Origin: a virus
Reading direction: 5' to 3' (one strand)
Length of the DNA: 28,985 nucleotides
IMG/VR virus record: IMGVR_UViG_3300035183_000203
Location: 1 to 28,985 of that record
Under the pieces are notes generated by a model. It was given only the letters and a program-made list of their open reading frames with translations. It was not told the origin of the DNA and did no database searches. Of this stretch, positions 5,312-12,272 are shown piece after piece. Both the position numbers and the translations under genes were made by a program. Positions within the stretch are counted from its first letter, which is position 1. Every line of letters begins with the position of its first letter.

Positions 5312-5674
5312 TTATCTCCTTATCCATTCAAACCGCAACAATTTCAACAGTAACTCTCTTGTCGCTGGTTTGTTATTTATCAATATTTTTCCGTCATCTG
5401 GATTCGTATTTTCAAACTGGATAAAATAAAATCCGCGATATTTTGAGTCGTGTTTTGCGGCGTTATGCAGCATGATGAAAATTTCTCTTTGCCATTGCGG
5501 ACAATCTTTTCCGTGACGTTTTTCCTCGATAATCATCCATTCGCCTGTCTTGTAATTTCGCCAAATGTAATCAATATTCGACGCCACAAATCCAAGACTG
5601 CTGTCAATTTCTTTTTGCTCACGAAGCCATAATCCAAACTCTGTCGAGTGGCTATCGCGCCTTTTCGATGTCAT
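5312..5674 (-). CDS. Putative PD-(D/E)XK-type nuclease (120 aa)
   Basis: The frame extends further upstream, but that part lies inside the methyltransferase gene. ATG 5674 (MTSKRRDSHSTEFGLWLREQ) gives a 23-bp overlap with it, as elsewhere in the operon. The protein has a candidate PD-(D/E)XK core: Asp35 in SNIDYIW, then after a beta hairpin the segment WMIIEEKRHG with Glu50-Glu51-Lys52 (ExK). A helix with QREIFIMLHN follows. The size and pattern suit a small phage endonuclease. Its position directly after a DNA methyltransferase may mean a linked function (modification/cleavage or branch processing). The nuclease call is moderate; the catalytic residues are visible but the fold is not proven. 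Confidence 0.65.
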   Translation of the reverse strand: MTSKRRDSHSTEFGLWLREQKEIDSSLGFVASNIDYIWRNYKTGEWMIIEEKRHGKDCPQWQREIFIMLHNAAKHDSKYRGFYFIQFENTNPDDGKILINNKPATRELLLKLLRFEWIRR

Positions 5675-6833
5675 GCAGCCTCGCTCTTCCAATTTCGACA
5701 TTTTCGGCTTCCAGTTCCAGGCCATGAAACAGGCAGCCATGACGAAGCGCGGCAACGCCGGTTGTCGCCGCGCCGCAAAACGGGTCGAGAATCCATTGCC
5801 CCGGCAGACAGATTTTTGAGACAATGTCAAACATGCCGCTTTCCGATTGCCCCCACTTGTGCAGGTTCTTATCCGTATTCTGGTCATAGACGCCACTTTT
5901 GAAAACGTCACCAAAAATTTTACCCGTGTATCTTCCGCCGCGCTTTGTAAAAATCAATAGTGGCTTCCAGGTTGTGTTGACATTGACCTGGCGAATCGGC
6001 GTCGGTTGTCCGGGCGTCAGGTAGCAGCCAGTCCAGTAATAATCCAGGTGGCGGCTCATCATCTCCATGATTTCGTCCAGGTAACTTTGGCCGCTCATGG
6101 CGATTAGCAGCCCGCCGTCCGTCAGCCATTCGTTCGCCCGCTCCGCCAGCACTTCCCACAGCGGCAGGTACTCTTTTGGATACGGCGGGTCGGTGATGAT
6201 GAAGTCGTACCGGCGCGGCGCGTTCCACGTTCTGATGTCTCCCTGCCAAATACGCCAGCGTTCTGACGGCGGCACATTTTTTGCGGCGGCCGCCATCTCC
6301 TCTCTCTTTTGTTCGCGTTGCCGTTGTTTAATTTTCTTTTCCGCCTCATGCGCCGTCATCTCCCCGCGCTCGATTTTTTCTACCAGTTCCGGCGCGGCGC
6401 GCTCAACGGCTTTGACGGCGGCAACAAGACGCGGCGAAACGTTCAGCAGTTCGGCGGCGGTGGATTGGTTGATTTTGCCATTCTGCAAATTTGCAGATTG
6501 CCATTCACTGTATTGATTTTTTCCAGTATCGCCGCCTCTCGTCATATTCGCCAACTTTGCGGCAATCACGGCGCGCTGGCTTTCGTTCAGGTGACGGCGT
6601 TTTAGATTGAGAGAGATGACGAAATTTAGCGGATTATCCCCCGTGTATTCGCGGTATTTCGGGTTGACGCCGACTTGCACGCAGGCGCGGTATCTGTTGC
6701 GCCCATCAAGAATTTTCCCCTGATATGTCCAGATTGGCTCTAGCAATCCATTAGCAGAGATGTCCCTGCATAATTCGTCAAATTCAGAGCCGTCAATCAG
6801 TGGGAACGCGTTTGCGATTTCGTGAAACTCCAT
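5652..6833 (-). CDS. ParB-like domain fused to DNA N6-adenine/N4-cytosine methyltransferase
   Basis: A 393-aa fusion. Residues about 1-100 form a ParB/Srx-like N-terminal domain (DGRNRYRAC at 43-51, then NLKRRHLNESQRAVIAAKL), followed by a partition-type helical region. Residues about 195-390 carry an amino-methyltransferase with motif IV DPPY (215-218) before motif I DPFCGAATTG (from 350), the beta-class order. It would transfer methyl from S-adenosylmethionine to adenine N6 or cytosine N4. Such fusions are frequent in phages and protect viral DNA or set methylation marks. ATG 6833 is preceded by TTGGAGA at correct spacing; a TTG at 6851 without such a site is rejected. It heads a transcription unit with its own promoter (6985-7012) and a structured leader. 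Confidence 0.9.
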   Translation of the reverse strand: MEFHEIANAFPLIDGSEFDELCRDISANGLLEPIWTYQGKILDGRNRYRACVQVGVNPKYREYTGDNPLNFVISLNLKRRHLNESQRAVIAAKLANMTRGGDTGKNQYSEWQSANLQNGKINQSTAAELLNVSPRLVAAVKAVERAAPELVEKIERGEMTAHEAEKKIKQRQREQKREEMAAAAKNVPPSERWRIWQGDIRTWNAPRRYDFIITDPPYPKEYLPLWEVLAERANEWLTDGGLLIAMSGQSYLDEIMEMMSRHLDYYWTGCYLTPGQPTPIRQVNVNTTWKPLLIFTKRGGRYTGKIFGDVFKSGVYDQNTDKNLHKWGQSESGMFDIVSKICLPGQWILDPFCGAATTGVAALRHGCLFHGLELEAENVEIGRARLHDIEKAR

Positions 6834-6849
6834 ATTGATTCTCCAATGC

Positions 6850-6946
6850 AAAAAGCAGATTGTCTCTGTCCTACCAGTTGCCAGTGGCAGACGTATGGAG
6901 CAACGTCAGCAACTGGCAGGACACAAACAATCTGCCATTGCTCCAT
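6850..6946 (-). promoter_or_regulatory. Structured leader, terminator/antiterminator-like attenuator before methyltransferase
   Basis: Read on the minus strand, the leader contains a long hairpin. The arm 6909-6923 pairs with 6867-6881 over 15 bp with one G-U, and 6927-6935 pairs with 6855-6863 over 9 bp. The hairpin ends in CTGC followed by five T (6854-6850), right before the ribosome binding site of the methyltransferase gene. This is the form of an intrinsic terminator. A second pair, ATGGAGCAA (6938-6946) with TTGCTCCAT (6895-6903), would enclose the 5' arm of the first hairpin and so compete with it. The pairings are seen; regulatory switching is inferred. Confidence 0.6.
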
Positions 6947-7030: not shown

Positions 7031-7031
7031 T

Positions 7032-7070
7032 GTTCGGGATAGTATGCTCAATTTGCATACTATCCCGAAC
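7032..7070 (-). terminator. Perfect 16-bp stem-loop, probable terminator
   Basis: GTTCGGGATAGTATGC (7032-7047) and its exact reverse complement (7055-7070) flank a 7-nt loop. It lies 5 bp beyond the stop codon of the gene at 7076-7306 and just upstream of the next promoter. The minus-strand continuation is A/T-rich but without a clean T run, so termination efficiency is uncertain; an operator role is the alternative. Confidence 0.6.
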
Positions 7071-7075
7071 GAATC

Positions 7076-7306
7076 TTATTTTTCTTCCTCCACTCGGACG
7101 CTCTTCAATTGTCCGAGCGGCTCTTGCGGGTCGGCTCTTAATATTTCGATTGCCCGCTCCAGCGTGTCCGCCTTCACGCGGCGGTTAACTAGCGCGTCGC
7201 CGCATGTATAGTACGTGATGAGGTATGTCGCAGGATACTTGATTTCATGGCCGTCCAATGTGGTAACCCAGGCCTCGCGCTCGCTGTCGTAGTAATATTG
7301 AAACAT
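7076..7306 (-). CDS. Hypothetical protein (76 aa)
   Basis: ATG 7306 (MFQYYYDSEREAWVTTLDGHEI) is preceded by TTGGAGATTACA, giving a proper ribosome binding site, so a TTG at 7318 is rejected. The product starts with a beta-rich half (AWVTTLDGHEIKYPATYLITYYTCGD), continues with a helix (KADTLERAIEILRADP) and ends acidic. No known family is recognised. It is the last gene of the short early unit starting at 8133 and is followed by the hairpin at 7032-7070. Confidence 0.75.
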   Translation of the reverse strand: MFQYYYDSEREAWVTTLDGHEIKYPATYLITYYTCGDALVNRRVKADTLERAIEILRADPQEPLGQLKSVRVEEEK

Positions 7307-7354
7307 TGTAATCTCCAATGTCCGTTTTTATCAGGAACGGACAAACCTGCGGTC

Positions 7355-7963
7355 TTATCGCGGCCTGACATGCTCCACGTCTTTGTAGTGGCGGGTTTCC
7401 CCGTCGGTGGTCGTGTAAGCCGAGCCGTCGGTGTAGTACACGCGGCACTTGATGGTGTAGCGTCCCGCTTTGCCCATGTCCTCAGATGTGACGTATTTCA
7501 TGAGGCCATTCGCAGATTCGATTTTCCATTTATTGACGGCAATTCGCGGATATTTGTCATTTGCGCCGAAAAACTTGATTGTGGTTTTGCCGTCCGGCTG
7601 TGGCAACACCTCCACAATATCGGCGTCAATCGTCTGATATTTAACATCCGGGCCTTTTCGAGATGGAGGCAATTCCACCGCAGATTCGGCCAGTTGTTTT
7701 GCGAGCTCTTTATTCCCCTCTTCCAGCACAATGGCAACGTCTTTTGTGGGCAGTGGGGCGGCGGCGGCGGGCGGAAGCGGTTTCTCGACGGTCATGTCGT
7801 ATTCCCCCATAGCCCAGACGATGCTATCCATGAGGCTTTTGATAGCATCTTTTGGCGTAATCGCGCGGGCAGTCACATTGATGGGTACGCCAGTCTTAGA
7901 ATAGATGGTGGCAAATGCTATTCCGCCCGCCTCTGGTAATTGGTAGTTTTCGTTTGTATTCAT
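7355..7963 (-). CDS. Hypothetical early protein (202 aa), possible ssDNA-binding role
   Basis: ATG 7963 (MNTNENYQLPEAGGIAFATI) has AAGGAGCC upstream and is taken over an upstream TTG at 7990. The N-terminal 60 residues include a short alpha/beta stretch (GVPINVTARAITPKDAIKSLMDSIVWAM), followed by a Pro/Ala linker. Residues about 105-202 are beta-rich with KYQTIDADIVEVLPQPDGKT, KFFGANDKYPRIAVNKWKIE and a terminal YKDVEHVRP. This resembles small beta-barrel nucleic-acid binders, but no OB-fold signature is certain. The gene directly downstream of a peptide with an SSB-like tail (8023-8133) makes a single-strand-binding function worth testing. Unproven. Confidence 0.75.
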   Translation of the reverse strand: MNTNENYQLPEAGGIAFATIYSKTGVPINVTARAITPKDAIKSLMDSIVWAMGEYDMTVEKPLPPAAAAPLPTKDVAIVLEEGNKELAKQLAESAVELPPSRKGPDVKYQTIDADIVEVLPQPDGKTTIKFFGANDKYPRIAVNKWKIESANGLMKYVTSEDMGKAGRYTIKCRVYYTDGSAYTTTDGETRHYKDVEHVRPR

Positions 7964-8022: not shown

Positions 8023-8133
8023 TTAGAACGGAATTTTATTATTATCGTCCTCGTCGCCTCCTTTCCGCGGCGCGTCAATCTCCAGAACCTCGCCGCCGCT
8101 GATAATACATCGTGTGCCAAGTTCATTGTCCAT
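8023..8133 (-). CDS. 36-aa peptide with SSB-like acidic C-terminal tip
   Basis: First gene of the leftward early operon. A strong AAAGGAG lies seven bases before ATG 8133, and a consensus promoter lies about 20 bp further upstream. The peptide begins MDNELGTRCIISGGEVLEID and ends GGDEDDNNKIPF. The final acidic run plus Ile-Pro-Phe resembles the C-terminal tip of bacterial single-stranded DNA-binding proteins (DDDIPF type), which recruits many repair and replication enzymes. There is no room for an OB fold. It may be a stand-alone tip peptide or the remainder of an SSB gene. Reality as a gene is well supported by promoter and ribosome binding site; function is inferred. Confidence 0.7.
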   Translation of the reverse strand: MDNELGTRCIISGGEVLEIDAPRKGGDEDDNNKIPF

Positions 8134-8154
8134 TTCAATCTCCTTTCATTTACA

Positions 8155-8195: not shown

Positions 8196-8223
8196 TTGAC
8201 AAAAATAAAAAAATCCATATAAT
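8196..8223 (+). promoter_or_regulatory. Rightward promoter of HTH gene and cassette array, leaderless
   Basis: TTGACA (8196-8201) and TATAAT (8218-8223), both perfect, have a 16-bp spacer. The expected transcription start is about 8230, one base before or at the ATG at 8231, so the mRNA would be leaderless or nearly so. No Shine-Dalgarno sequence is present before that ATG. Confidence 0.8.
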
Positions 8224-8230
8224 TCACAAT

Positions 8231-8419
8231 ATGGAAACAATAAAACTCACTAAACCAATTTATGAATACTCGGCCAATGAATGGCTTCGTATCTGGAGCG
8301 AAGCCCGCCGCGCTGAAATGCGCCGGCTTTATGCCAGCGGCAATCTCTCGCTGGCAAAAGTAGGCGAGAGGTTCGGAGTATCCCGCCAGAATGTGGCGCG
8401 AGTTTTGAAGGATAATTAA
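8231..8419 (+). CDS. Small HTH DNA-binding protein (62 aa), putative switch regulator
   Basis: Longer in-frame starts exist from 8114, but these would cover both promoters. ATG 8231 (METIKLTKPIYEYSANEWLR) coincides with the predicted transcription start and is chosen. The C-terminal half, EMRRLYASGNLSLAKVGERFGVSRQNVARVLKDN, is a clear helix-turn-helix like those of resolvase/Hin-type or sigma-like proteins (AKVGERFGVSRQNVARV). The gene faces away from the early operon across two back-to-back promoters, the arrangement of a phage genetic switch. Downstream on the same strand begins the cassette array, so it probably shares this transcript. At 62 aa it lacks a separate dimerisation domain. A repressor or activator role is inferred. 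Confidence 0.8.
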   Translation: METIKLTKPIYEYSANEWLRIWSEARRAEMRRLYASGNLSLAKVGERFGVSRQNVARVLKDN

Positions 8420-8487: not shown

Positions 8488-8733
8488 ATGAAAGCAAAGA
8501 CAATATTTTTTTACATTTTTGAAAACGGAGAAACTTGTGCAATGGTTTCTTCGGCGGGGGACCCAGAAACCATGCACAGAGCTGCAATGCAACAGGCAAA
8601 AGTTCGCGGTACAAAAATTTCATGCGCTCATGTAATCGACGATGGAGTTACGATCGATTACAAAACGCAAAAATTACTTGCCAGGTTTGTTGATTTTGAT
8701 TTTTCTCATGGTGTCCCATTTCCGATTCGATGA
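8488..8733 (+). CDS. Cassette 1 protein, hypothetical (81 aa)
   Basis: ATG 8488 follows GAGG with six bases between. The product starts MKAKTIFFYIFENGETCAMV and continues with a helical middle (ETMHRAAMQQAKVRGTK) and a beta-rich end; it is soluble and of unknown family. The TGA at 8731-8733 lies immediately before the R'' box of attC1, the normal gene/attC arrangement of a cassette. It is about 70 nt downstream of the HTH gene and probably read from the same promoter. Confidence 0.75.
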   Translation: MKAKTIFFYIFENGETCAMVSSAGDPETMHRAAMQQAKVRGTKISCAHVIDDGVTIDYKTQKLLARFVDFDFSHGVPFPIR

Positions 8734-8736
8734 GCG

Positions 8737-8866
8737 GGCTAACATCGCGTGCAGCCGACTGGTGGGACTCGTCCCGACTTACAAGCATTTTTCTGGCTTC
8801 GGGCTTTTTCCTGCTCCCAAGCCGAATCCACGCCCGCTCACCAGCGGCTAACGCAAACCGTTGGGC
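8737..8866 (+). other. attC1 recombination site
   Basis: R'' GGCTAAC (8737-8743), L'' AGCCGACTGGTG (8752-8763), L' CACCAGCGGCT (8839-8849), R' GTTGGGC (8860-8866). L'' and L' pair with one unpaired A. Unpaired spacers ATCGCGTG and AACGCAAACC separate the arms, as in canonical attC. An outer GAGCGGGC/GCCCGCTC pair is also present (8732-8739, 8832-8839). Confidence 0.9.
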
Positions 8867-8892
8867 GGCAAGTCCAGAAAGGAATAAAAAAA

Positions 8893-9039
8893 ATGGAAAT
8901 ATTGGTGGTGGTTGCGTGTGCGTTAATTATTGGTAATATTCTATGGGAATCCAAAGACGACATTCCGCTTGGTTGTGGCGCGCTCATGGTTATTGGAGTA
9001 ATCGTTGGATGGGTGGTGCTATGGCGAATTTTTCCATAG
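8893..9039 (+). CDS. Cassette 2 small membrane protein (48 aa)
   Basis: MEILVVVACALIIGNILWES forms a first transmembrane helix. A short charged and Gly/Cys loop (KDDIPLGCG) follows, then a second helix (ALMVIGVIVGWVVLWRIFP) to the C-terminus. An AAAGGA motif precedes the ATG at 8893. The stop lies two bases before the R'' region of attC2. Two-helix hairpin proteins of this size are common in cassettes and in phages (exclusion, holin-like, toxins); which applies here is unknown. Confidence 0.7.
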   Translation: MEILVVVACALIIGNILWESKDDIPLGCGALMVIGVIVGWVVLWRIFP

Positions 9040-9041
9040 CC

Positions 9042-9150
9042 GCCCAACATCGTTTGCAGGCGGACGGCGGCAACGCTGTTCCAGTCTAGCAATCATCCCA
9101 ACAGCAGGCGAGCGCGTACGAGCCGCCGCCGCTGAAACCAACCGTTGGGC
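9042..9150 (+). other. attC2 recombination site
   Basis: R'' GCCCAAC (9042-9048) and R' GTTGGGC (9144-9150). L'' AGGCGGACGGCGGC pairs with L' GCCGCCGCCGCT with an unpaired A. The 5' end of cassette 2 (GTTGGGCGGC) is the exact complement of GCCGCCCAAC here. Confidence 0.9.
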
Positions 9151-9164
9151 GGCTTGGAGGAAAA

Positions 9165-9383
9165 ATGTGTAATCGTTTATATAGATATAAATGCGTAGTA
9201 TGTGGGCTTTCCTGCGAAGGTTGCGTCCACGATGGTTTTTATTATTCAAAAAAGGTTTGCGGTAAGTTACGCTGTTCAATAGAAGCACGCTGCCGAACAT
9301 CGCGTGCACTGGACGGGGCGAAGCGCACGGCTCAAAAAGGTTCTATTAGTGGCAAGCGTTCTGGTAGGTCGCCCCGCCAGTAA
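9165..9383 (+). CDS. Cassette 3 cysteine-rich peptide (72 aa)
   Basis: GGAGG lies five bases before ATG 9165. The N-terminal half is Cys-rich (MCNRLYRYKCVVCGLSCEGC, then KKVCGKLRC), suggesting one or two zinc sites of CxxC type. The reading frame continues through the whole attC3 and terminates at the TAA of its L'/spacer region, so the last 30 residues are encoded by the recombination site and are basic and low in hydrophobics. A shorter functional core is likely. Unknown function. Confidence 0.65.
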   Translation: MCNRLYRYKCVVCGLSCEGCVHDGFYYSKKVCGKLRCSIEARCRTSRALDGAKRTAQKGSISGKRSGRSPRQ

Positions 9384-9398
9384 CGCAAACCGTTGGGC
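9292..9398 (+). other. attC3 recombination site
   Basis: R'' GCCGAAC (9292-9298, one mismatch to consensus) and R' GTTGGGC (9392-9398). L'' ACTGGACGGGGCGA pairs with L' TCGCCCCGCCAGT over 13 bp with exactly one extrahelical A. This is the cleanest stem in the array. Confidence 0.92.
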
Positions 9399-9422
9399 GG
9401 AAGCCCTGCATAAGGAGTGATA

Positions 9423-9692
9423 ATGAAAAAAGAAAATGGTTCGTCAAGTGTTCATGTTTTATATCATAGCCCTCGCTGGCATATCTGCTGGAATTTGTTC
9501 GCTCACGGCTATCGTAAGTATGCCGTCAATTTCAAGCGTTACACCAGCCTCGGTATTGAGTATTGCTTTTGGGTGTCGTTTGGTAAGGGTAATCTGTCAT
9601 TCACATTCCGCCCAACACCGCTTGCACACCGACCAGAAACGGGCGCGGCGAAATCTGACAGCGAATCCAAGTCCGCCGTTTCTGGCGGGTGA
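9423..9692 (+). CDS. Cassette 4 hypothetical protein (89 aa)
   Basis: ATG 9423 follows AAGGAG at ideal spacing, which decides between this frame and an overlapping longer frame (9436-9912). The product reads MKKENGSSSVHVLYHSPRWH, with aromatic-rich segments IEYCFWVSFGKGNLSFTF, and the last quarter is encoded by attC4 with its TGA inside L'. Composition suggests a beta-rich soluble or peripheral membrane protein. No family is recognised. Confidence 0.6.
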   Translation: MKKENGSSSVHVLYHSPRWHICWNLFAHGYRKYAVNFKRYTSLGIEYCFWVSFGKGNLSFTFRPTPLAHRPETGAAKSDSESKSAVSGG

Positions 9693-9707
9693 AGCAAATC
9701 GTTGGGC
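9610..9707 (+). other. attC4 recombination site
   Basis: R'' GCCCAAC (9610-9616) and R' GTTGGGC (9701-9707). L'' CCGACCAGAAACGG pairs with L' CCGTTTCTGGCGG with one unpaired A. TTCCGCCCAAC is the exact 11-bp complement of the 5' end of cassette 4 (GTTGGGCGGAA, 9392-9402). Confidence 0.92.
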
Positions 9708-9729
9708 GGCAAGCCCGGAAAGGAACAAA

Positions 9730-9912
9730 ATGGATTGCAAAAAATGTGGAAGTCCCGTGTATCACCCATCATCTAGCAAACTATGTCCGCAGTGTGAAGG
9801 TGAGATGTTGGATAAATGGGTTGCAGAACAAGAAGCCGCCCAACAACACATGCAACCGACCGCCGCTGGCGGAGAGACGGACGGCGAAAATTCTGAAAGC
9901 GGCGGCGGCTAA
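9730..9912 (+). CDS. Cassette 5 zinc-ribbon peptide (60 aa)
   Basis: AAAGGAACAAA precedes ATG 9730. The protein opens with MDCKKCGSPVYHPSSSKLCP and QCEG, a classic four-cysteine zinc ribbon (CxxC...CxxC), then an acidic helix (EMLDKWVAEQEAAQQHM). The remaining part is low-complexity Gly/Glu sequence coded by attC5, ending at the TAA of GGCTAACGC. It is probably a small zinc-binding adaptor; the cellular role is unknown. Confidence 0.75.
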   Translation: MDCKKCGSPVYHPSSSKLCPQCEGEMLDKWVAEQEAAQQHMQPTAAGGETDGENSESGGG

Positions 9913-9927
9913 CGCAAGCCGTTAGAA
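9838..9927 (+). other. attC5 recombination site
   Basis: R'' GCCCAAC (9838-9844) and R' GTTAGAA (9921-9927, last base off consensus). L'' AACCGACCGCCGCT pairs with L' AGCGGCGGCGGCT with one extrahelical A. GCCGCCCAAC complements the 5' end of cassette 5. Confidence 0.9.
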
Positions 9928-9940
9928 AGGCTCTTGCAAA

Positions 9941-10144
9941 ATGAAAGATATTTTAGGTCTTGTTATTGTGACAATGGGAGCGTCTATCTTCGGGCGCGGC
10001 TTTGAAATGTTATCACCTGATTTACAAACAGAATTCGCCAAAGAAATGTACGAGAAAATGATTGCCTTTCTAACACAGCGTACAGCGGACGGGGCTAACG
10101 TGTCCGCCGAATCAGACAGTGTTGGCGGCACACCCCGCCGCTGA
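9941..10144 (+). CDS. Cassette 6 small membrane-anchored protein (67 aa)
   Basis: MKDILGLVIVTMGASIFGRG is a single N-terminal hydrophobic helix. A charged amphipathic helix (LQTEFAKEMYEKMIAFLTQR) follows, and then a tail coded by attC6 that ends with TGA in L'. GAAAGG is the ribosome binding site. The organisation (anchor plus helix) resembles many cassette and phage accessory peptides, and no specific function follows. Confidence 0.65.
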   Translation: MKDILGLVIVTMGASIFGRGFEMLSPDLQTEFAKEMYEKMIAFLTQRTADGANVSAESDSVGGTPRR

Positions 10145-10159
10145 CGCAAACCGTTAGAC
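10093..10159 (+). other. attC6 recombination site
   Basis: R'' GGCTAAC (10093-10099) and R' GTTAGAC (10153-10159, consensus). Shorter than its neighbours (67 bp). R'' does not fully complement the 5' end of cassette 6 (GTTAGAA), indicating drift. L' GCTGACGCAAACC matches the array consensus. Confidence 0.75.
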
Positions 10160-10209
10160 CTCTGTTTTGCAAACAGGCGTACCTTGTCAAATGAATATCG
10201 GGCGGCGGT

Positions 10210-10398
10210 GTGGTAGTACACACACAGGATACTGGAAAGACGACCCTAAGCAAGTCAGCCGGGATGAATAGTCCCCGCCAGTATGCCGCAGAACACATGC
10301 TAAGTAATGCGATGTTACTCCGCCCGAAAGACCCCTTACACACCGTTGCCAAGAGACGCAAGCCCACATGCTCCATGCTCGAAACAATAGTGCGGTGA
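10210..10398 (+). CDS. Doubtful cassette 7 ORF (62 aa, GTG start)
   Basis: Cassette 7 (10154-10496) has no ORF with a convincing ribosome binding site. The only reasonable frame begins at GTG 10210 or at the internal ATG 10264 (MNSPRQYAAEHMLSNAMLLR) and stops 10 bp before R'' of attC7. Its C-terminus is basic with Cys and His. A 26-codon frame starting at 10191 also exists. The cassette may carry no protein gene, or a non-coding RNA or promoter. Low confidence. Confidence 0.3.
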   Translation: MVVHTQDTGKTTLSKSAGMNSPRQYAAEHMLSNAMLLRPKDPLHTVAKRRKPTCSMLETIVR

Positions 10399-10410
10399 AA
10401 AGTGGGTGGG

Positions 10411-10502
10411 GTCTAACATAGCGTGCAGCGGTTGGTGGGCTGCGCCACTTCGCTTTCAAGTCGCGCCGTACCCGCCAATCCGCTGCACGCAAGCCGTTGG
10501 GC
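10411..10502 (+). other. attC7 recombination site
   Basis: R'' GTCTAAC (10411-10417) and R' GTTGGGC (10496-10502), both consensus. GGTCTAAC is the exact complement of the cassette 7 start GTTAGACC. L'' AGCGGTTGGTGGG pairs with L' CCCGCCAATCCGCT with one bulged base. Confidence 0.9.
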
Positions 10503-10516
10503 GGATAGGAGTAAAA

Positions 10517-10681
10517 ATGAATCTTTTATGTTCGGTGTTTGGGCATCTATGGGTGTCTCGATATTGGTGGATTGATAGCGCAACATGCGTTTTGAAAAAA
10601 GAATGTTTGCGTTGCAGTGAAGAACGTTTGTCTGAATATCCACCCAACATTGTTTTGCAGCAGACGGGCTTATATGAATAA
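10517..10681 (+). CDS. Cassette 8a small Cys/Trp-rich protein (54 aa)
   Basis: ATAGGAG precedes ATG 10517. The peptide MNLLCSVFGHLWVSRYWWID continues with CVLKKECLRCSEE, so a Cys-x2-Cys zinc site or disulphides are possible. The TAA overlaps the ATG of the following ORF, suggesting coupling. An R'' box (ACCCAAC, 10642-10648) that complements the start of this cassette lies inside the end of the gene, but its attC is not completed. See the fused-cassette finding. Confidence 0.65.
   Translation: MNLLCSVFGHLWVSRYWWIDSATCVLKKECLRCSEERLSEYPPNIVLQQTGLYE
10642..10665 (+). other. Truncated attC (R''/L'' half only)
   Basis: TATCCACCCAAC (ending at 10648) complements the start of cassette 8, GTTGGGCGGATA (10496-10507), at 11 of 12 positions with a G-T wobble. 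It is followed by a spacer and an L''-like GCAGACGGG. No matching L'/R' follows before the next gene, so the 3' half seems deleted. Confidence 0.6.
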
Positions 10682-10883
10682 ACTTGTAAAACCAAAAGCA
10701 ATCGGTCTGCAATGGGTGTGGGTTTGCGAAGAATGCGAAACACCCATCGTTGTTGCAAATAAGCGGTATTTCTGGGCTTGCAATTGTCACTTACGCCCAA
10801 CAAAGCGCGCACTGGACAAAAGCCAGCGGGCAAATCGCCACGCCACTAATACCCACCGTTGGACGACAAGCGCGAAGGAGTAA
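10674..10883 (+). CDS. Cassette 8b zinc-binding peptide (69 aa)
   Basis: ATG 10674 overlaps the stop of the previous ORF. The sequence MNKLVKPKAIGLQWVWVCEE has a CEEC pair, and later CNCH, consistent with a four-ligand zinc site. The frame goes on through attC8 and past its R' into the leader of the next cassette, stopping at TAA 10881-10883 after the AAGGAG of the following gene. The C-terminal third is basic and attC-derived. No good independent ribosome binding site; coupling is likely. Confidence 0.6.
   Translation: MNKLVKPKAIGLQWVWVCEECETPIVVANKRYFWACNCHLRPTKRALDKSQRANRHATNTHRWTTSAKE
10795..10864 (+). other. attC8 recombination site
   Basis: R'' GCCCAAC (10795-10801) and R' GTTGGAC (10858-10864), both consensus. 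The interior GCCAGCGGG...CGCCACTAAT resembles that of attC10, suggesting the two belong to a different attC lineage from sites 1-5. Confidence 0.85.
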
Positions 10884-10887
10884 TAAA

Positions 10888-11229
10888 ATGATTGATGAAG
10901 TTTTACGCAAATTGATTGATTTTCTGCAGGAGGCCAGTCCGTTTGTTTGGAGTACGTTGCTTAGGCAGGTTTATGTTGACGCTGCCGGAAATATCGCCTG
11001 GTCAGTTGGGCTTCTTGTTCTTGCCTTTGTTTTATATAAGGCCGGTAAGTACGGCAAGGAGCATGCCACTGATTACAACATGCTGGGAGAAATGGGTTTG
11101 ATTGCCTGGTTTTTCTGCGCGCTATTTGGAGTGGCTTCTTTTAGTTTGCTGGTTGATGCGATAAAATATTTCTCAAATCCAGAGTTTTATGCAATCCAAT
11201 ATATCCTGCGCCAAATAGGTGGCGGCTAA
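10888..11229 (+). CDS. Cassette 9 membrane protein (113 aa)
   Basis: AAGGAG lies seven bases before ATG 10888. An amphipathic N-terminus (MIDEVLRKLIDFLQEASPFV) precedes a transmembrane helix (IAWSVGLLVLAFVLYKAG), a charged loop (KYGKEHATDYNMLGEM) and a second helix (IAWFFCALFGVASFSLLVDA). The gene ends in Gly-Gly-Gly with the TAA of GGCTAACGCC, i.e. within its attC. It is the largest cassette membrane protein. Candidate functions such as superinfection exclusion or abortive infection are by analogy only. Confidence 0.75.
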   Translation: MIDEVLRKLIDFLQEASPFVWSTLLRQVYVDAAGNIAWSVGLLVLAFVLYKAGKYGKEHATDYNMLGEMGLIAWFFCALFGVASFSLLVDAIKYFSNPEFYAIQYILRQIGGG

Positions 11230-11245
11230 CGCCAGTTCGTTGGGA
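11194..11245 (+). other. attC9, degenerate
   Basis: R' region TTCGTTGGGAGG with core GTTGGGA (11239-11245) and the typical L' GGCTAACGCC are clear. R'' is weak (ATCCAAT at 11194-11200 is the best match). The GGGAGG of R' also serves as the ribosome binding site of the next gene. Confidence 0.55.
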
Positions 11246-11253
11246 GGCTTTTT

Positions 11254-11745
11254 ATGACATATAATGTTTCACAAATTAGAGAGGCCGTAAAAGTTTCTTT
11301 ATCATTCGCCCAGGTCATGCGCGAAATAGGCAAACGCGGAGGCGGCACACAACAGAGAATAAAACTATTTTGCCAACGTAATAATATTGATTACAGCCAC
11401 TTCACCGGCCAGGCACATTGTACTCCGCAACGCAAAGTTTCTTTTGAGGAAGGAAGCAAAAAAGTATCAACCAGCGTTTTGAAGAAACGTCTTTTTGCTT
11501 CTGGCGTTGAAAAAGTTTGTCAACAGTGCGGTTTGTCAGAGTGGCGTGGTTTGCCTGCTCCATTGGAGCTTCATCATAAAGACGGAAATAGAAACAACAA
11601 CCATCCATCCAATTTGGAAATATTATGTCCGAATTGTCACGCGCAAACTGAGTCGTATTGCAGACGCAAACGCTACCGCCGTCCAACACCGCCTGCGTTC
11701 AACGAAGCCAGCGGGGACACGCCACTAATGACGGCAAGCCATTAA
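11254..11745 (+). CDS. Cassette 10 HNH endonuclease (163 aa)
   Basis: The C-terminal half carries an HNH nuclease: a CQQC zinc knuckle near residue 90, LELHHKDGNRNNNHPSN (His107-His108, Asp110, Asn residues) and LEILCPNCHAQT with the second CxxC and a histidine. The N-terminal half contains a possible HTH (SLSFAQVMREIGKRGGG) found with many phage-associated HNH proteins. It would cut DNA; whether it acts as a mobile nuclease, packaging helper or defence enzyme is open. ATG 11254 uses GGGAGG from the attC core. The last residues are coded by attC10, and its TAA overlaps the stop of the opposing gene. Confidence 0.9.
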   Translation: MTYNVSQIREAVKVSLSFAQVMREIGKRGGGTQQRIKLFCQRNNIDYSHFTGQAHCTPQRKVSFEEGSKKVSTSVLKKRLFASGVEKVCQQCGLSEWRGLPAPLELHHKDGNRNNNHPSNLEILCPNCHAQTESYCRRKRYRRPTPPAFNEASGDTPLMTASH

Positions 11746-11747
11746 AT
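11681..11747 (+). other. attC10, right end of array
   Basis: R'' GTCCAAC (11681-11687) is consensus. The terminal core is ATTAAAT (11741-11747), departing from GTTRRRY only at the first base. Interior GCCAGCGGGGACACGCCACT is shared in style with attC8. The core coincides with the last codons of the phage gene on the other strand. Confidence 0.7.
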
Positions 11748-12272
11748 CTTTTCCAACCACGCGGCAGGCAAGTATGCCCACGGCCGCCAATACAAAGTCG
11801 GAAACGTGACACCCCCGCGCGGGATGTACGATTTTCCGTCCAGTGTCAACGCCCGCCAGACATAAAGCAGGTGGGGAGGCGGGTTGAACGGTAAATCAAA
11901 TGCCGCGTCCCAGCATTCGATTTTGGCAAAATTCCCCACAAATTCCAACACGTTTACCAGCGCGCCGCCGGATACCTCCGGCGTATGTTGTCGGTATATT
12001 CCTGTCGTCTCGTCATACGCCAGTACCATGTCGGTTTTATTGTCGTGAGATACCAGCCAGTTGAATTGTTCCTGATTATTCCACGACATGATGCGTTCTA
12101 TTTGCTGGGCAGATAATTCTATTCCATTCCCTTTCTCGAATTTCGGGTTTTCGAGAAGGGGTATGTTGTCGAATGTCCCATACGGCCTGCCAAGCCAGCC
12201 GATGTCCGGCCGTTTATCACCAGTCATGGCACGGTATAGATTCACGCGGCGGACGTTGGCAATCAGTTTCAC
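11742..12272 (-). CDS. Hypothetical protein (176 aa), last gene of late unit
   Basis: GTG 12272 overlaps the endolysin stop (GTGA). The protein is soluble and Trp-rich, starting MKLIANVRRVNLYRAMTGDK; later segments include AQQIERIMSWNNQEQFNWLV and ECWDAAFDLPFNPPPHLLYV. It has no signal peptide and no known domain. Position after the endolysin suggests a lysis or virion accessory role, without direct evidence. Its TAA (11744-11742) shares bases with the TAA of the HNH cassette on the plus strand, so the two transcription units converge exactly here. Confidence 0.8.
   Translation of the reverse strand: MKLIANVRRVNLYRAMTGDKRPDIGWLGRPYGTFDNIPLLENPKFEKGNGIELSAQQIERIMSWNNQEQFNWLVSHDNKTDMVLAYDETTGIYRQHTPEVSGGALVNVLEFVGNFAKIECWDAAFDLPFNPPPHLLYVWRALTLDGKSYIPRGGVTFPTLYWRPWAYLPAAWLEKI

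Follow-up and report, generated by a model that had tools for sequence, protein, structure and literature searches.

A phage gene for a 36-residue peptide with a conserved core and an SSB-like C-terminal tip

Bacterial SSB proteins (PF00436) carry at their extreme C-terminus an acidic stretch followed by hydrophobic-Pro-Phe (tip DDDIPF), and a dozen or more enzymes of genome maintenance share this tip as a handle. Docking of the SSB C-terminus (SSB-Ct) involves a hydrophobic pocket for the terminal Phe, a basic lip for the carboxylate and a basic ridge for the Asp residues (PMC10164576). Free SSB-Ct peptides bind RecG at 3 µM and RadD at 5 µM, and with RecG the loss of the last Phe weakens peptide binding more than tenfold (PMC10164576, PMC10238739). 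Synthetic SSB-Ct peptides, used as probes or competitors, present the tip without a DNA-binding domain and dock SSB partners in vitro (PMC10238739, PMC10164576). Here we describe a phage peptide that ends as bacterial SSB does but differs from it in being 36 residues long, in having neither an OB fold nor a PF00436 match, and in the residues NNK that separate its acids from IPF. Like the synthetic peptides it bears a tip without a DNA-binding domain, but it is encoded by a natural gene and has a conserved core besides. A limited keyword search of the open-access literature found no report of a natural stand-alone SSB tip, which is weak evidence of absence.

The window analysed here is the entire virus record of 28,985 bases, which may itself be incomplete. 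On its minus strand a 36-codon ORF (8133 to 8023) translates to MDNELGTRCIISGGEVLEIDAPRKGGDEDDNNKIPF, followed by a stop codon. The first-pass annotation had described a 36-aa gene with a consensus promoter and a strong ribosome-binding site, and inspection bore this out at exactly 8023–8133 (minus): the promoter TTGACA-16-TATAAT (8182 to 8155, minus) matches the sigma-70 consensus at 12 of 12 positions, and AGGAG (8140–8144, minus) lies 6 nt 5′ of the ATG. A divergent 12/12 TTGACA-16-TATAAT promoter (8196–8223, plus) serves the neighbouring gene for a 62-aa helix-turn-helix (HTH) protein, a probable regulator (8231–8419, plus). Behind the peptide gene, its transcription unit continues with a 202-aa orphan (7355–7963, minus) and a 76-aa ORF without a significant family (7076–7306, minus). 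The unit possibly ends at a 17-bp inverted repeat (7031–7071, minus); we infer a terminator of the minus-strand unit here, the repeat having a terminator-like score on the plus strand only. A ParB-like/DNA methyltransferase gene (5652–6851, minus) has its own perfect promoter (7012 to 6985) and was the marker for finding related phages.

Through this marker we found one contig (handles L003 and L005) whose DNA is about 90% identical to the window over 806 bases of the ParB-methyltransferase region and mosaic elsewhere. Two perfect divergent promoters and an HTH protein, 59% identical and with weak PHROG matches to HTH/regulator families, are arranged there as in the window. The early transcription units of both phages have perfect promoters, 12/12 and with 16 nt between the boxes (window 8182–8155, 8196–8223 and 7012–6985; L003 3705–3732, 3691–3664 and 5767–5794). 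The first gene of L003, preceded by a similar ribosome-binding site (AAAGGAGAT), encodes a protein of 126 aa; its last 38 residues align with the peptide at 50% identity (E 7e-10). Since L003 shares the divergent perfect promoters, the HTH neighbour and the homologous segment, we take it that the 36-codon ORF is a real gene, and its placement as the first gene of its transcription unit, suggested at first reading, is backed by the perfect promoter conserved in L003. The stand-alone state of the peptide is not universal, since in the L003 protein an 88-residue, helical-looking part precedes the core and the tip.

The two known members of the family, the window peptide and the 126-aa protein, are most alike in a core of 16 residues (LGTRCIISGGEVLEID; 8074–8121, minus), with the consensus LGTRCI(I/V)SGG(E/D)VLE(I/V)D. 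Thirteen of the 16 positions are identical and the other three are conservative, while 10 of the 12 nucleotide differences fall at third positions. This corresponds to dN of about 0.11, dS of about 1.9 and dN/dS of about 0.06 over the 16 residues, a ratio that is only rough because dS is near saturation. By this pattern of substitutions the core is translated, and purifying selection acts strongly on its amino acids. Lack of translation, named beforehand as grounds for giving up the idea, is countered by this. The core probably forms a short beta hairpin. Past the core the sequences diverge (APRKGGDEDDNNK in the window against YYIDASYEDKNGDTDD in L003), and both still end in [IL]PF after an acidic stretch. 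The gene is thus conserved and stands first behind its promoter, and in its product the linker changes in sequence but stays acidic and still leads to [IL]PF at the C-terminus.

The tip of the window peptide (EDDNNKIPF; 8026–8052, minus) had been called close to the -DDDIPF of SSB. Its acids and its IPF end justify the comparison, but residues −6 to −4 are NNK and the acidic cluster lies three residues farther from the end. Docking should be weakened by this difference, because Lys at −4 sits where the basic ridge of the pockets expects Asp and the acids next to IPF are gone. The L003 tip, GDTDDLPF, is more SSB-like and close to canonical. Homologues lacking the IPF end had been named beforehand as grounds for giving up the idea of an SSB-like tip; the sole homologue found ends DTDDLPF and retains [IL]PF despite the drift of its linker, so that both members possess an acidic C-terminal tip closing on hydrophobic-Pro-Phe. 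We also scored ORFs with a filter for an [ILVMF]PF end and at least three acidic residues among the preceding six. Of the 391 window ORFs of at least 25 aa one passed; the 51,647 ORFs from 100 Markov-shuffled windows gave none, and the 5,376 ORFs of background loci gave 12. All 12 are true SSB genes, in loci fetched for their SSB, and no other background ORF passes. On these counts the tip is not due to chance.

Searches for further members returned the same contig. Translated searches of annotated phages with the peptide (tblastn) gave chance matches only; when viral contigs were scanned with two degenerate DNA motifs of the core, L003/L005 was the sole genuine match (L004, L006 and L029–L032 match in other frames or by chance), and the 126-aa protein and the HTH gene as queries led to that contig alone again. 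Nothing convincing was found in 400 Chloroflexota genomes with the 126-aa protein, or in 400 genomes of one Chloroflexota order with a two-row profile. A search of viral contigs for other short ORFs that end in a canonical tip gave at least 120 stretches. Among the 80 loci listed, most matches are the ends of longer ORFs and there is no clean second case. These matches include non-SSB phage proteins ending DD[IL]PF (for example L094, L108, L126 and L130), which have a terminal motif like that of the peptide, but mostly where a longer ORF ends. Among the matches listed, just one short family stands independently, a 29-aa ORF, M(Y/V)PDMFLLSACLVTSLGLVCIYFEDDLPF, in L099, L141, L147, L158 and L163, with a strong ribosome-binding site and a membrane-like stretch; it is a doubtful second tip-peptide family, as it overlaps another ORF antisense.

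Beyond the HTH gene the window contains at least eight integron attC-like sites (8733–11750, plus), and an array is also present in L003/L005. The sites, GCCCAAC...CGTTGGGC, are spaced 220–360 bases apart with small cassette ORFs between them, on the strand opposite to nearly all phage genes; no integrase was noticed. Their bottom strands fold as attC-like hairpins, one of them clearly better than shuffled sequences. By these features the array is an integron cassette cluster in a phage. Phage CALINs have been described in a paper from which Chloroflexi are absent (PMC9892861). One cassette is 97.7% identical between the phages (window 9141–9400, L005 8072–8329) and the others differ, as if cassettes were exchanged between phages or with host integrons.

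The array also points to the host. An 18-base attC end from the window, allowing at most one mismatch, occurs in 22 of 400 Chloroflexota genomes, with at least three copies in nine of them and 24 in one; a reversed control was never seen more than once in a genome. A Chloroflexota MAG with five such sites also carries a related contig, L008. Because the attC end recurs in these genomes and L008 sits in a Chloroflexota MAG, the phage host is probably a member of the Chloroflexota. SSBs of such genomes end EDEFPF, EDDIPF, EDEIPF or EDNIPF.

The 36-aa peptide has no OB-fold DNA-binding domain and matched neither a Pfam nor a PHROG family; by these tests it is no SSB, though it may act as the tip of one does. 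A PF00436 search of the whole window record and of the L003 record found no gene, and an SSB could lie outside if a record is incomplete. In L008, whose genes were named from their sequences and whose SSB was also aligned with hhalign, the ParB-methyltransferase gene is directly preceded by genes for an ERF-like annealing protein and for a canonical SSB with the end NEDWPF. This phage SSB resembles the peptide in operon position and in its tip, but is a full canonical SSB beside an ERF-like protein, where the window has a tip peptide and an orphan protein. Since the window and L003 are without PF00436 while L008 has ERF and SSB there, the slot before the ParB-methyltransferase gene appears to serve single-strand DNA handling.

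The reading we prefer, and to which we give an even chance, is that the peptide is an OB-less SSB-tip adaptor or mimic of a Chloroflexota phage, with a tip that docks host SSB partners and a core that binds something else. The C-terminal Phe, which is free, together with the Pro and the acids before it, would fit the pockets in which host SSB-interacting proteins take up an SSB tip; candidates are RecO, PriA, ExoI, RecG, DnaG or chi-type proteins. The other partner, bound by the core, would most likely be a protein of phage replication or recombination, and the adaptor would in this way supply an SSB-type tag in trans and redirect or occupy host enzymes early in infection. As free SSB-Ct peptides bind at low micromolar concentrations, a strongly expressed peptide could occupy host partners. 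The homologue with its tip in the corresponding place, the conserved promoters, the constrained core, the specificity of the tip filter, the SSB tips of the host lineage and the ERF and SSB genes of L008 speak for this reading; the NNK of the window tip, a family of two members, the longer form in L003 and a 202-aa neighbour that is not conserved there speak against it.

Four other explanations are unlikely to varying degrees. The tip could be incidental: the gene would then make a short conserved peptide with a regulatory or structural role, for example as a partner of the divergent HTH protein, and its PF ending behind an acidic linker would be a coincidence. The constant pairing with the HTH gene, the NNK adjoining IPF and a conservation dominated by the core are what such a peptide would show, but both members retain [IL]PF after acids despite their diverged linkers, and elsewhere the filter finds SSBs alone; we regard an incidental tip as unlikely. 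Much the same holds for a pure decoy, in which a free tip, abundant from the start of infection, draws partners away from host SSB (exonuclease I, RecO/RecBCD-linked or RecQ-type enzymes, for example) and shields the phage DNA, with the rest of the peptide as no more than a stabilising scaffold. A decoy for SSB partners had been the first proposal, and the tip kept in the homologue, the strong promoter and ribosome-binding site of a first gene, and the micromolar affinity of free tips, which allows competition at high copy (PMC10164576), all speak for it. Its pure form is partly countered, however: the core rather than the tip is the most conserved part, far beyond the needs of a scaffold, the window tip is degenerate at −4 to −6, and in L003 an 88-residue domain is fused in front. 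We favour the adaptor over a bare decoy because the core is the most conserved part and because core and tip follow the 88-aa domain in L003.

The third explanation, which we consider improbable, is a split SSB, in which the neighbouring 202-aa protein would be a divergent phage protein for binding single-stranded DNA and would receive its tip in trans from the peptide. The two genes share one transcription unit, and L008 has an SSB in this slot. Furthermore, the positional equivalent of the 202-aa protein in L003 (4251–5150) is a 299-aa orphan with a beta-rich-looking N-terminal half and its own tip-like acidic end, QDEDAFPY, which makes it a candidate divergent phage ssDNA-binding protein. 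Against this, no sequence or profile link from the 202-aa or the 299-aa protein to SSB was found, the two are non-homologous, so that the 202-aa protein is not conserved alongside the peptide, and the AF2 models of both are unusable. For the 202-aa protein the single-sequence model reached pLDDT 39, and its earlier description as beta-rich is compatible with prediction; for the 299-aa protein a helical bundle near residues 249–288 has pLDDT 70–77. Alignment of the 202-aa protein with Chloroflexota SSBs (hhalign) gave 0.1% probability, for a protein without homologues: it has no family, and neither the viral contigs nor the phages nor 18 related records gave a relative, an apparent one (L043) being a chance match to a RimM-like gene. 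Directly 3′ of the unrelated second genes, 40 bases are fully identical (window 7313–7352, L005 12698–12737) and hold a GTCCGTT...AACGGAC hairpin; this stretch could be the joint where the second gene was swapped. Finally, the ORF could be the 3′ end left over from the decay of a longer gene like that for the 126-aa protein of L003. The 88-aa N-terminal part is missing and has left no trace elsewhere in the window, but this reading is very improbable given a start codon directly behind an intact strong ribosome-binding site and a perfect promoter, and a core dN/dS of about 0.06.

Returning to the adaptor, we tentatively propose, at somewhat less than an even chance, a natural family of stand-alone SSB-tip adaptors, in which a docking tag without an OB fold is mounted on a conserved 16-residue core and, from the onset of infection, seizes or reroutes the interactome of host SSB. 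SSB-tip competitors are sought as antibacterial leads (PMC5872125), and the phage peptide, if the proposal is true, would be their natural counterpart. A phage gene for the handle alone would then be a minimal tool for taking over or blocking several host enzymes together.
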